From NCBI GenBank assembly GCA_017471045.1, contig JAFUWZ010000011.1, positions 1 to 64,000 on the forward strand: a stretch of DNA of 64,000 bases. Reading direction: 5' to 3'. Below the pieces are notes generated by a model. That model saw only the letters and a program-made list of their open reading frames with translations. It made no database searches and was not told the DNA's origin. Shown in pieces: positions 33,647 through 38,834 of the stretch. Position numbers and translations under genes: made by a program. Origin of the DNA: Bacteroidales bacterium. Lineage in GTDB: Bacteria; Bacteroidota; Bacteroidia; Bacteroidales; UBA932. Position 1 is the first letter of the stretch; each line of letters begins with the position of its first letter.

Positions 33647-36600
33647 TCAGTTCTTGCCGGACTTGGCGAGCATCTCCTTGGCTTCCACCGTCAGCGTGGC
33701 GTGGGGGACGAGACGCAGGCGCTCCTTCGGGATCAGCTTGCCGGTCACGCGGCAGATGCCATAGGTCTTGTTTTCGATGCGAGCGATGGCAGCCTCAAGG
33801 TTCTGGATGAACTTGTACTGGCGCTGGGCGAGCGCGCTCGCTTCCTCCTTGGAGAGCTGATTGGCACCGTCATCCTCAACCGTCTTGAAGGACGGGGAGG
33901 TGTCCTCGATGTCGTTGCTGCCATTGTGCATCACGATGTGACGGAGCTTGTTGTACTCGGAACGCGCTTTCGCAAGCATGTCCTCGATGATCACGCGGAA
34001 CTCTTCGAGCTCCTCATCGGAATAGCGGGTCTTTTGTGTGTCTGCCATATTCTTTTGTTTTATGACATGGATCTTTATGGGTGTATCGCTCCATTCCACC
34101 TCCACGGCATCCCCGGGCGCGGCAGATAACGGCGCGAGGTCCACCGAGACGGCGAGGGTCTGCGATGCAAGGTAATCTTTGTAGGCGGACAGGGACGCTG
34201 CGATCTCCTCGGCGTCGGTCCCGTCGGCATAAAGCATGACGGCCACCTTGTCCGTCACCGCGAAGCCGCTGTCCTTGCGGATGTTCTGGATGCGGTTGAC
34301 CAGTTCGCGGGCGACGCCCTCGCCACGAAGCTCTTCGGTGACGGCGATATCCAGGGCGATGGTGAGCGAGCCTTCCGAGCCGACCAGCCAGCCGGGCATG
34401 TCCTCGGATGAGATCTGGTAGTCTCCGGGCTGCAGATCGACGGGACCGGAGGGCAGGGCGAGCGTGTAGGTGCGGTCCTCGGACTCGGCGGCCTGGATGT
34501 CGGAAATCGTCTGCTGGCCGAACGCGGCGAATGCGGCGGCGATCTCCTTCATCTGCTTGCCGTAGATCTTGCCCAGGGTCTTGAAATTGGGCTTGATCTT
34601 CTTGGTGATGATGCCGGTCGTGTCGGAGAGGAACTCCGCCTCCTTGACGTTGACCTCCCCGAGCAGGATGTCCTTGACCTTCTCCAGCTGGTCGCGGACC
34701 TTGTCGGAAATGACCGGGATGACGAGCTTGGAGAGCGGCTGGCGGACTTTGATGCCCACTTTGCGGCGCAGCGCGAGGACCATCGAGGTGGCCTTCTGGG
34801 CCAGCGCCATCCGCTCCTCCAGGTCCTTGTCGATCAGGGCCGGATCCGCCTCGGGCATCAGCACGTAGTGGACGGATTCTTCCCCGTCGGGCACGAGGTC
34901 CAGATAGAGGCGGTCCATGTAGAAGGGCGCGATGGGTGCCGCCAGCACGGCGACGCTGCACAGCACCTCGTACAGGGTCTGGTAGGCGGCCGTCTTGTCC
35001 GCTCCGGCCTCACCGCCCCAGAAACGCTTGCGGTTGAGGCGCACATACCAGTTGGACACGTGGTCGCAGACGAAATCCTGGATCAGGCGGCCGGCCAGCG
35101 TGATGTCGTAATCCTCATACGCAGCCCGCACGTCGCGGATCAGGGAGTTGAGCAGCGAAAGGACCCAGCGGTCGATCTCCGGACGCTCCGCGTACGGGAC
35201 AGCCGGCGCCTTGGGGTCGAAACCGTCCACATTCGCGTACAGCGCGAAGAAGGAGTAGGTGTTGTAGAGCGTGCCGAAGAACTTGCGCCGCACCTCGTCC
35301 ACGCCGGCCTCGTCGAACTTGAGGTTGTCCCAGGGCTGGGCGTTGGTCAGCATATACCAGCGCAGCGGGTCAGCGCCATAGGTATCCATCGCCTGGAACG
35401 GGTCCACGGCATTGCCCAGGCGCTTGGACATCTTTTCGCCCTTCTTGTCGAGGACCAGACCGTTGGAGATCACGCGGCGGAAGGCCGGCGTCCCGCTCAC
35501 CATCGTATGGATGGCGTGCAGGGTGTAGAACCAGCCGCGGGTTTGGTCGACGCCTTCGGCGATGAAATCGGCCGTGCTGCCGAAATCGGGCGTATCCAGG
35601 CCGCGCAGTCCCGTCTGGGCGTACGGCATCGCGCCGGAATCGAACCACACGTCAATCAGGTCGGTTTCGCGCGTCATCTTCCGCCCGCTCGGGCTGACGA
35701 GGAAGATCCGGTCCACATAGGGACGGTGCAGGTCGATCTTGTCATAGTTGGCCTTGGACATGTCGGCCGGATCGAAGCCCTTCTCCTTGAGCGGATTGCC
35801 TTCCATCACGCCGGCCGCAACGGCCTTTTCGATCTCGGCATAAAGCTCGGCGACGCTGCCGATGCAGATCTCCTCCCGACCGTCGTCGGTGCGCCAGATC
35901 GGGAGCGGCGTGCCCCAGTAGCGGCTGCGGCTGAGGTTCCAGTCTTGGATGTTCTCCAGCCATTTGCCGAAGCGGCCCGTGCCGGTGGCTTCCGGCTTCC
36001 AGCTGATCTGCCCGTTGAGGGCCATCATCTGTTCGCGCACCGCCGTCGCCTTGATGAACCAGGAGTTCAGCGGGTAGTAGAGCACGGGCTTGTCCGTGCG
36101 CCAGCAGTGCGGATAGCTGTGCGTATGCTTCTCGATGCGGAAAGCCTTGTTGGCGGCCTTGAGCATCACGCAGAGGTCTATATCGAGGGTCGGGGCGTCC
36201 GGCGCGAGGGAGGCGTCGTAGGCGTTCTTGACGTAGCGGCCCGCCCACTCCTTGTAGTCGTCGCTGACCCGCCCGGCCACATAAGCCGGATCGAGGTCTT
36301 CGAGGCGATAGAAGCGGCCCTGAGGGTCCACCTGGGCCTGGGGCGCGCCGTCCTTGTCCGTCACGTACAGGCCCGGGACACCGGCGAGCCGGGCCACCTT
36401 GGCGTCGTCGGCGCCGAAGGTCGGGGCGATGTGGACGATGCCGGTACCGTCCTCGGTGGTGACATAGTCGCCGGGAATGACCCGGAACGCGCCCTCATCC
36501 GGGCGGAACCAGGGGATCAGCTGCTCATAACGCATGCCGACCAACTCACTGCCCTTGACCGTGCCGGGAAGCACTTCGAAGGGGACCTTGTCGCCAAACC

Positions 36601-37414
36601 AGGCGCCGACCAGATCCTTCGCGAGGATGTAGGTCGCGGGCGTGCCGGTATAGGGGTTGGTGCTACGCACGCGGACGTAGTCGATGTTCGGGCCCACGCA
36701 GAGCGCCGTATTGGAAGGCAGGGTCCAGGGGGTCGTCGTCCAGGCGAGGAAGTAGAGTTCGTCCTCATCGACGGCCTTGAACTGCGCGCAGACCGTCGTG
36801 TCCTTGACGTCGCGGTAGCAGCCCGGCTGATTGAGCTCGTGGGAGCTCAGGCCCGTCCCGGCGGCCGGGGAATAGGGCTGGATGGACTTGCCTTTGTACA
36901 GGTAGCCCTTGCCATAGATATCCTTGAGCAGGTACCAGAGCGTCTCGATGTAGCGGTTGTCGTAGGTGATGTAGGGATCGTCCATGTCCACCCAGTAACC
37001 GACGCGCTCGGTGAGGGTCCGCCACTCGGCGGTGTATTTCATGACCTCCTGACGGCAGGTGCGGTTGTACTCCTCGACGCTGATCTTGGTGCCGATGTCC
37101 TCTTTGGTGATGCCGAGCTTCTTCTCGACGCCCAGCTCGACCGGCAGGCCATGGGTATCCCAGCCGGCGCGGCGGCGGACCTTGAAGCCGGTCTGCGTCT
37201 TGTAGCGGCAGATCGCGTCCTTGATCGAGCGGGCCATCACATGGTGGATGCCCGGCATGCCGTTGGCCGAGGGCGGACCTTCAAAGAAAATGAACTCCGG
37301 GGCCCCCTCCCGCAGGGAAAGGGATTTCTCGAAAGCGGCGTTCTTCTTCCAGCGCTCCAGGATGTCGTTTCCGACTCCGACCAGATCCAGTCCTTTGTAT
37401 TCTTTGAATGTCAT
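33647..37414 (-). CDS. ileS: Isoleucyl-tRNA synthetase fused in frame to a TraR/DksA-family protein
   Basis: A single 1255-aa frame. Residues 1 to about 1122 are a complete eukaryotic-type (IleS2-like) IleRS: signature GIHH at 55-58 in place of HxGH, editing domain, KMSKR loop (KKGEKMSKRLGN) and a long C-terminal region ending near KIHVIKQKN. Residue 1123 (ATG 34048) begins what is normally a separate gene: MADTQKTRYSDEELEEF, a coiled coil, then YGICRVTGKLIPKERLRLVPHATL, a TraR/DksA-type C-terminus with only one of four zinc Cys. No stop separates them. The AT-rich junction looks like a former spacer, with an out-of-frame TAA. ATG 34048 could still give a free 133-aa protein. ATG 37414 is chosen as the start. 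Confidence 0.9.
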   Translation of the reverse strand: MTFKEYKGLDLVGVGNDILERWKKNAAFEKSLSLREGAPEFIFFEGPPSANGMPGIHHVMARSIKDAICRYKTQTGFKVRRRAGWDTHGLPVELGVEKKLGITKEDIGTKISVEEYNRTCRQEVMKYTAEWRTLTERVGYWVDMDDPYITYDNRYIETLWYLLKDIYGKGYLYKGKSIQPYSPAAGTGLSSHELNQPGCYRDVKDTTVCAQFKAVDEDELYFLAWTTTPWTLPSNTALCVGPNIDYVRVRSTNPYTGTPATYILAKDLVGAWFGDKVPFEVLPGTVKGSELVGMRYEQLIPWFRPDEGAFRVIPGDYVTTEDGTGIVHIAPTFGADDAKVARLAGVPGLYVTDKDGAPQAQVDPQGRFYRLEDLDPAYVAGRVSDDYKEWAGRYVKNAYDASLAPDAPTLDIDLCVMLKAANKAFRIEKHTHSYPHCWRTDKPVLYYPLNSWFIKATAVREQMMALNGQISWKPEATGTGRFGKWLENIQDWNLSRSRYWGTPLPIWRTDDGREEICIGSVAELYAEIEKAVAAGVMEGNPLKEKGFDPADMSKANYDKIDLHRPYVDRIFLVSPSGRKMTRETDLIDVWFDSGAMPYAQTGLRGLDTPDFGSTADFIAEGVDQTRGWFYTLHAIHTMVSGTPAFRRVISNGLVLDKKGEKMSKRLGNAVDPFQAMDTYGADPLRWYMLTNAQPWDNLKFDEAGVDEVRRKFFGTLYNTYSFFALYANVDGFDPKAPAVPYAERPEIDRWVLSLLNSLIRDVRAAYEDYDITLAGRLIQDFVCDHVSNWYVRLNRKRFWGGEAGADKTAAYQTLYEVLCSVAVLAAPIAPFYMDRLYLDLVPDGEESVHYVLMPEADPALIDKDLEERMALAQKATSMVLALRRKVGIKVRQPLSKLVIPVISDKVRDQLEKVKDILLGEVNVKEAEFLSDTTGIITKKIKPNFKTLGKIYGKQMKEIAAAFAAFGQQTISDIQAAESEDRTYTLALPSGPVDLQPGDYQISSEDMPGWLVGSEGSLTIALDIAVTEELRGEGVARELVNRIQNIRKDSGFAVTDKVAVMLYADGTDAEEIAASLSAYKDYLASQTLAVSVDLAPLSAAPGDAVEVEWSDTPIKIHVIKQKNMADTQKTRYSDEELEEFRVIIEDMLAKARSEYNKLRHIVMHNGSNDIEDTSPSFKTVEDDGANQLSKEEASALAQRQYKFIQNLEAAIARIENKTYGICRVTGKLIPKERLRLVPHATLTVEAKEMLAKSGKN

Positions 37415-37982: not shown

Positions 37983-38834
37983 ATGAAAGACAGGATCATA
38001 TACATCGAAACATCGACTTCCCTCACCTCCGTCGCCCTGTCGGAACAGGGACGCATCGTCGCCTACCGGCAGACCGACGTCCCGCGCAGCCAGGCTTCCC
38101 TGACCGCCCCGTTCATCGACGCACTCCTGCGGGAGCGGGGCCTGACGGTAAAAGATTGCGACGCCGTCTGCGTCAGCAAGGGCCCCGGCTCCTATACCGG
38201 CCTGCGGGTGGGGTCCTCCACCGCGAAAGGGCTCTGCTTCGGGGCGGATCTGCCGCTGATCGCGGTGGGGACGCTCGATACGCTGGTGGCGCAGGCGCAG
38301 GACGACGGCCTCGTGCCTGAGGGTTGCAAATACATCATCCCGATGATCGACGCCCGGCGGATGGAGGTATATTCGGCCGTCTTTTCGGCCGCCGGCGAAC
38401 GCCTGACGGAAATATCGCCTGTCATCGTGGACGGCACGACCTACGCCGCCCGTCTGGCGGAAGGGACCGTCCTCTTCATCGGCGACGGCGCCCTGAAGTG
38501 CCGGGACATCATCTACGGCACGGCGGAGGCAGGCGACTGCGAATACGGCAAGGCCGGAAACGGCACGACGGAGGCAGGCTCTGCACAGGCCGGTGACGGG
38601 TTGAGAGGAGCCTTCCCTGAAGGGTCCTCTCCCGGCTCCTCGATGCCTGCGCCGGCCTCGCAGCCGACCGCCGGCGTTGAAGCATATTTCGCGGGCTGCT
38701 GCCCGCGGGCAGATGCGATGCTGCGGCCCGCCATGCAGGCGTTGAAAGCAAAACGGTTCGAAGACACCGCGTACTTCGAACCGTTCTATCTCAAGCAATT
38801 TGTCGCCACCGTCAGCGCCAAGAAACTCTTCTAA
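37983..38834 (+). CDS. tsaB: tRNA threonylcarbamoyl transferase subunit TsaB, with an inserted segment
   Basis: 283 aa; the TsaB partner of TsaD in t6A37 synthesis. The ASKHA-fold start IYIETSTSLTSVAL, the GPGSYTGLRVG motif (about residue 67) and DARRMEVYSAVF (about 122) are intact. Between about residues 180 and 233 there is a low-complexity insert (GTAEAGDCEYGKAGNGTTEAG and beyond) holding a near-duplicate 20-nt tract and the palindromic element at 38605-38641. The normal C-terminal helix (FEPFYLKQF) follows. The insert is in frame, so the protein is probably functional. The usual length is about 230 aa. The stop overlaps the convergent lipoprotein gene by 4 nt. Confidence 0.9.
   Translation: MKDRIIYIETSTSLTSVALSEQGRIVAYRQTDVPRSQASLTAPFIDALLRERGLTVKDCDAVCVSKGPGSYTGLRVGSSTAKGLCFGADLPLIAVGTLDTLVAQAQDDGLVPEGCKYIIPMIDARRMEVYSAVFSAAGERLTEISPVIVDGTTYAARLAEGTVLFIGDGALKCRDIIYGTAEAGDCEYGKAGNGTTEAGSAQAGDGLRGAFPEGSSPGSSMPAPASQPTAGVEAYFAGCCPRADAMLRPAMQALKAKRFEDTAYFEPFYLKQFVATVSAKKLF
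38605..38641. repeat. Palindromic element, copy B, inside tsaB
   Basis: Arms GAGGAGCC (38605-38612) and GGCTCCTC (38634-38641), with an inner CCCTGAAGGG hairpin. It matches copy A (1-52, opposite orientation) across the 32-33 nt core. It is translated in frame as part of the tsaB insert. Confidence 0.7.

Follow-up and report, generated by a model that had tools for sequence, protein, structure and literature searches.

An in-frame fusion of ileS with a TraR/DksA-family gene and its retained internal start codon in one genus of Bacteroidales

The fused reading frame and its parts

The window analyzed here is a 64,000-nt stretch of a contig from a gut bacterium of the Bacteroidales, whose draft genome comprises 73 contigs with a completeness of 95.99. 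On its minus strand, an uninterrupted frame of 1255 codons runs from an ATG at 37414 to a stop ending at 33647. No stop codon separates the isoleucyl-tRNA synthetase (IleRS) part from the TraR/DksA-family part that follows it, in agreement with the initial annotation, and the second ATG and the nearby out-of-frame TAA (34062 to 34060) pointed out there were likewise read in the sequence. The locus contains the following features:

34049–37414, minus strand: IleRS part with a DUF5915 C-terminal domain, without a stop codon of its own
33647–34048, minus strand: TraR/DksA-family part of 133 aa, which begins at an ATG of its own (34048); the coordinates include the stop codon
34049–34068, minus strand: A-rich stretch directly 5′ of the internal ATG, a former spacer that now provides linker codons and is a probable translation initiation region (A at −3, −6, −12, and −13)
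34060–34062, minus strand: out-of-frame TAA
33049–33639, minus strand: lspA (signal peptidase II), the next gene, which gave the control junction

The domain content of the predicted protein was determined by profile searches. The Pfam domains tRNA-synt_1, Anticodon_1, DUF5915, and zf-dskA_traR were all matched in the single fused protein. The ileS model TIGR00392 scored 968.7 bits against a cut-off of 621.4, and PF01258 scored 30.5 bits against a gathering score of 24.9, indicating membership of the IleRS family and of the TraR/DksA superfamily, respectively. The equivalog model for DksA proper, TIGR02420, gave 43.6 and 49.4 bits and stayed below its cut-off of 115.5. A C4-type zinc finger with four zinc-binding cysteines was not found either: the 133-aa part has only one cysteine. 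The Pfam match spans this region. Judged by its sequence, this part is a DksA-family protein and not DksA in the strict sense; the solved structures related to it by sequence are 6ptg, 4ijj, 2kq9, and 1tjl.

Across 12 aligned fused proteins, the DksA part was strongly conserved, and the linker was short and variable. An AlphaFold model of the 350 residues at the C-terminal end, computed from the 12 fused relatives, had a mean pLDDT of 67.4 and a pTM of 0.37, with pLDDT below 50 at residues 217–225, in the stretch that links the last strand of IleRS to the first long helix of DksA. The model is compatible with a loosely tethered DksA domain and carries no information on function. A single ileS above the cut-off and a single PF01258 match at E 0.1 were found in the genome, both located in the fused frame. 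Because its sole ileS and sole dksA-like gene share this frame, an IleRS without the tail could not be produced by ordinary translation from the genome as assembled.

Two further features were observed upstream of the fused frame. A TsaB/TsaD-family gene (PF00814; window 37983–38834) contains imperfect repeats at about 38515–38579, within a Gly-, Glu-, and Ala-rich stretch, and this TsaB-like gene overlaps a convergent thioredoxin-like gene by four bases at their ends (38831–38834).

Occurrence among relatives and number of origins

The distribution of the fusion was surveyed at the level of genus, order, and phylum. Among 400 genomes of the genus, 370 gave a match and at least 20 were clearly fused, with one match spanning both parts and no stop; an additional fusion lay at a contig edge (G071). 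Matches were listed best first, so those spanning both parts rank at the top and fusions with long linkers may be missed. Seven split matches in long open frames (L139–L145) were considered as long-linker fusions, and none was fused once the loci were read. A second genus sample was ranked on DksA only; of its 151 genomes, 137 matched, 11 of them in an open frame of at least 1000 aa, in addition to G071. The closest relatives of the window, G095 (locus L032) and G188 (locus L113), are 88–89% identical to it over the searched part of the protein. Both were compared for a stop between the two parts and were open too, with linkers that differ from that of the window. By tree, the genus includes a relative of Candidatus Cryptobacteroides gallistercoris, as locus L067 pairs closely with L142 (genome G315, of the same genus). 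In genome G128, one of the 11 from the DksA-ranked sample, the fusion was accompanied by a second, separate dksA on another contig (contigs C84 and C19); two strains may be mixed in this assembly, since its stated contamination is 5%.

Outside the genus, no fusion was found in any of the 142 genomes of the order that could be assessed from the open frame holding the match, three long frames being read in addition. The order sample held 149 genomes, 145 of them matched; two belonged to the genus (the window genome and G253, in which the genes are separate), and among the 143 others G830 was left unjudged, having only a 24-residue fragment at a contig start. The three long frames turned out to be an out-of-frame reading over ileS (G827), a DksA-like protein that itself carries a lysine-rich extension (G881), and a separate dksA (G929). 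The G881 protein (L266:2763–3968) has a long lysine-rich front with AKKAP-type repeats, which we take to be reminiscent of histone-H1-type tails, and is not fused to ileS. A genome of another family, G051, for which an open frame of 1316 aa was given, had stops between the genes when the locus was read. In the phylum sample (391 of 395 genomes matched), none but the window had an open frame above 379 aa among the matches listed, and plasmid records gave no megablast match. Within the genomes searched, the fusion is confined to one genus.

Loci with both genes numbered 194, of which 135 were distinct, 22 fused and 113 separate. The proportion 22/135 is not a frequency, because the search ranking favours in-frame pairs and fused genomes were fetched on purpose. 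The order ileS, dksA-like gene, lspA, described in the initial annotation as the normal arrangement, was indeed found for the separate genes in the other 113 distinct loci, and lspA was found in 134 of the 135. The linker had also been taken for a former AT-rich spacer, which agrees with the nearest separate relatives (L174, L175, and L176): their IleRS ends a few codons earlier with TAA, followed by a short AT-rich spacer.

Trees were built with FastTree on all 135 rows and with IQ-TREE on 61 chosen rows, comprising 21 fused and 40 of the 113 separate loci; rows left out were L138, which is very short, and six that were long-branched or belonged to the outgroup. On both trees seven changes between the fused and separate states were needed, and all seven were forced by well-supported branches. 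The fused groups are the window with L032 and L113, five loci around L036, seven around L006, four around L003, and the single loci L005, L136, and L137. A single fused clade was rejected by the AU test (p = 9.7e-66), as were three unions of fused groups that were picked after the tree was seen (p = 7.5e-6, 7.7e-5, and 1.2e-13). L137 is set apart from L169, and the L159 group from L136, by the branches of the trees. A count of changes cannot distinguish gain from loss; gain would be the natural direction, since the relatives seen outside the genus are separate. The fusion thus seems, from these sequence trees, to have arisen about seven times independently in the genus. No regained stop was found inside the fused groups, against about four expected by a rough hand estimate, which is weak in its four-fold rates and its choice of groups and, with the tree length of the window group guessed, too soft to count as selection (four-fold tree lengths in three fused groups were 1.30, 2.44, and 1.17).

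The internal start codon and its surroundings

An ATG at the old dksA start was present in 22 of 22 fused junctions, and the residues preceding it vary. In Flavobacterium johnsoniae, A at −3, −6, −12, and −13 raises initiation and mRNA structure is also a determinant, according to Baez et al. (2019; PMC6847099). The same four positions were scored here. The mean A count was 2.64 at the 22 fused ATGs and 2.57 at the 113 separate dksA starts, compared with 0.75 at the other IleRS Met codons of fused loci (439 codons) and 0.80 at those of separate loci (2294 codons). The window ATG has A at all four positions. The count was two of four in L165, L170, and L173, and just one of four in L164, L168, and L169, a value reached by 46 to 67% of the ordinary Met codons there. 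Folding was tested in 18 of the 22 fused loci, and in all 18 the 63 bases surrounding the ATG folded less strongly than those at any other IleRS Met codon examined. With one locus taken per each of the seven groups, Fisher p was 0.001 for the A count and 5e-5 for the folding energy.

Base composition was also compared around the ATG. Fused and separate loci alike showed a dip in GC that spans roughly codons −14 to +5. In the last eight codons before the ATG, third-position GC was 0.27 versus 0.78 in ileS (21 fused loci), and overall GC was within the lowest 4% of ileS windows in all 21 scored fused loci; linker third-position GC was only mildly low in L159 and L164, in which 15% of ileS windows were as low. 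In separate loci, third-position GC of the last eight ileS codons was 0.37 versus 0.75 where the gap was below 20 nt (63 loci) and 0.51 versus 0.62 where it was at least 40 nt (24 loci). Most of the third-position dip would therefore belong to the dksA start, the dip being clear at short gaps and slight at long ones. The AT-richness could partly be a leftover of the recent spacer. However, within the L006 group divergence between loci at four-fold sites reaches 55%, and yet AT-rich codons are kept before the ATG, suggesting that these start surroundings have been maintained and are not only a recent leftover.

A dual product, the fusion plus a protein from the internal start, had been proposed in the initial annotation. 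The kept ATG, the start-like context, and the open mRNA speak for it in the window and in most fused loci; the A count of L164, L168, and L169 does not. These three weak contexts fit the alternative that the internal ATG is no longer used, leaving the domain tethered to IleRS as the only source of DksA activity. With an open frame, production of the fusion is to be expected, and the conservation of the DksA part would also be accounted for. However, a plain linker needs no ATG, A-rich context, GC dip, or open mRNA, all of which are kept in most fused loci, and we therefore consider the production of the fusion only to be unlikely.

Proposed stop loss, reading frame, and fate of the fused tail

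The frame relation of the neighbouring genes was examined in 60 separate loci, taken in list order from the DksA-ranked list and skipping those fetched before, with the dksA start set at the ATG nearest the conserved part (five loci have a further upstream ATG inside ileS). The two genes stood in the same frame in 17 of the 60 loci and in other frames in 43. Without the ileS stop, 11 of these loci would fuse in frame and 34 would overlap in another frame; in the remaining 15, ileS would end ahead of the ATG. The balance is reversed in the 113 frame-enriched loci, some of whose genomes are also among the 60: 55 would fuse, outnumbering the 13 that would overlap, and 45 would stop before the ATG. 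No separate locus in either set (0/60 and 0/113) had an ileS that runs out of frame past the dksA start. If all stop losses were equally lasting, seven in-frame events and no others would have a probability of about (11/45)^7 = 5e-5, a comparison made after the fact. At the control junction between dksA and lspA, where the gaps are mostly shorter, fusion was found in 0 of 134 loci. That fusions were found in frame only is most simply read as tolerance of a folded DksA tail but not of a nonsense one. The fused tail may be of benefit, but this need not be assumed.

Taken together, these sequence comparisons suggest that the fusion is probably a tolerated and recurrent stop loss which gives IleRS-DksA together with free DksA from the internal start. 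The ileS stop would have been lost while ileS and dksA stood in the same frame, joining IleRS to the DksA-family domain by a short linker. The old dksA start, A-rich, little folded, and of the type used by Bacteroidota ribosomes without Shine-Dalgarno pairing, would have been kept, and free DksA would still be made from it on the same mRNA. The fused tail would be tolerated, and perhaps useful, because it is a folded domain. The roughly seven occurrences in the genus may follow from the short spacer and from the same-frame position of about three in ten separate pairs. All fused genomes are drafts. Among the options of an indel, a dual product, and a bifunctional protein put forward in the initial annotation, the dual product appears to be the best supported.

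The fusion might instead be a bifunctional regulator, in which DksA is brought to IleRS and couples isoleucine charging to RNA polymerase control. Its roughly seven separate origins, its persistence in groups of three to seven distinct loci, and, suggestively only, the lack of regained stops would suit such a role. However, the fusion is absent from most of the genus and from the genomes sampled outside it, the linker is short and variable, and tolerated stop loss accounts for the pattern, so that we regard regulation of this kind as quite improbable. There is an equally slender chance that the charging state on the synthetase body gates the access of the tethered DksA to RNA polymerase, while free DksA, initiated internally, provides a basal level, a design that would have been reached about seven times as useful. 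A tail-less IleRS might be released if ribosomes shifted frame at the junction or if the linker were cleaved, for which the nearby out-of-frame TAA and the low-confidence linker of the AlphaFold model would offer a place. Such release must be rated as doubtful: the one motif class tested, the slippery heptamer X XXY YYZ, was absent from −75 to +30 of the ATG in 22 of 22 fused junctions, and the linker sequence varies between groups. An assembly or sequencing indel that removed the ileS stop, conceivable in a draft of 73 contigs, is very improbable, since the separately assembled G095 and G188 share the fusion with different DNA and six further groups have fusions of their own.

Significance and comparison with known systems

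Searches of open-licence PMC papers gave none with a title or displayed abstract on an IleRS-DksA fusion. The tolerated stop loss with a retained start proposed here would amount to an experiment that nature has repeated: within one genus, a housekeeping synthetase and a transcription factor were joined about seven times, and all 22 fused junctions seen retain the old start codon. These fusions allow neutral stop losses to be tested against selected links between tRNA charging and transcription, and they would also serve to examine the persistence of a start site within a coding frame when no Shine-Dalgarno pairing is involved. The annotation of a fused genome may also seem to lack dksA.

In Shigella flexneri, dksA is reported to adjoin gluQ-rs, a GluRS paralogue, as separate genes with a transcriptional terminator (PMC3542578). 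As in the window, dksA there lies beside a synthetase-like gene; the order is opposite, the neighbour is a GluRS paralogue, and the genes are separate. The separate genes of related Bacteroidales are much closer, sharing the protein families and the gene order ending in lspA, and they differ from the window by the stop and short spacer between ileS and the TraR/DksA-like gene. NCBIfam NF040702, ileS with an N-acetyltransferase domain, is likewise an IleRS carrying an unrelated domain, but the domain is another one, and the fused protein scored 280.9, far below the cut-off of 1999. IF2 and CheA are each made in a long and a short form, the short one beginning at an in-frame internal start of the same gene. 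They resemble the arrangement proposed here in deriving two products from one frame, whereas the frame in the window is a joining of genes that are separate in its relatives.
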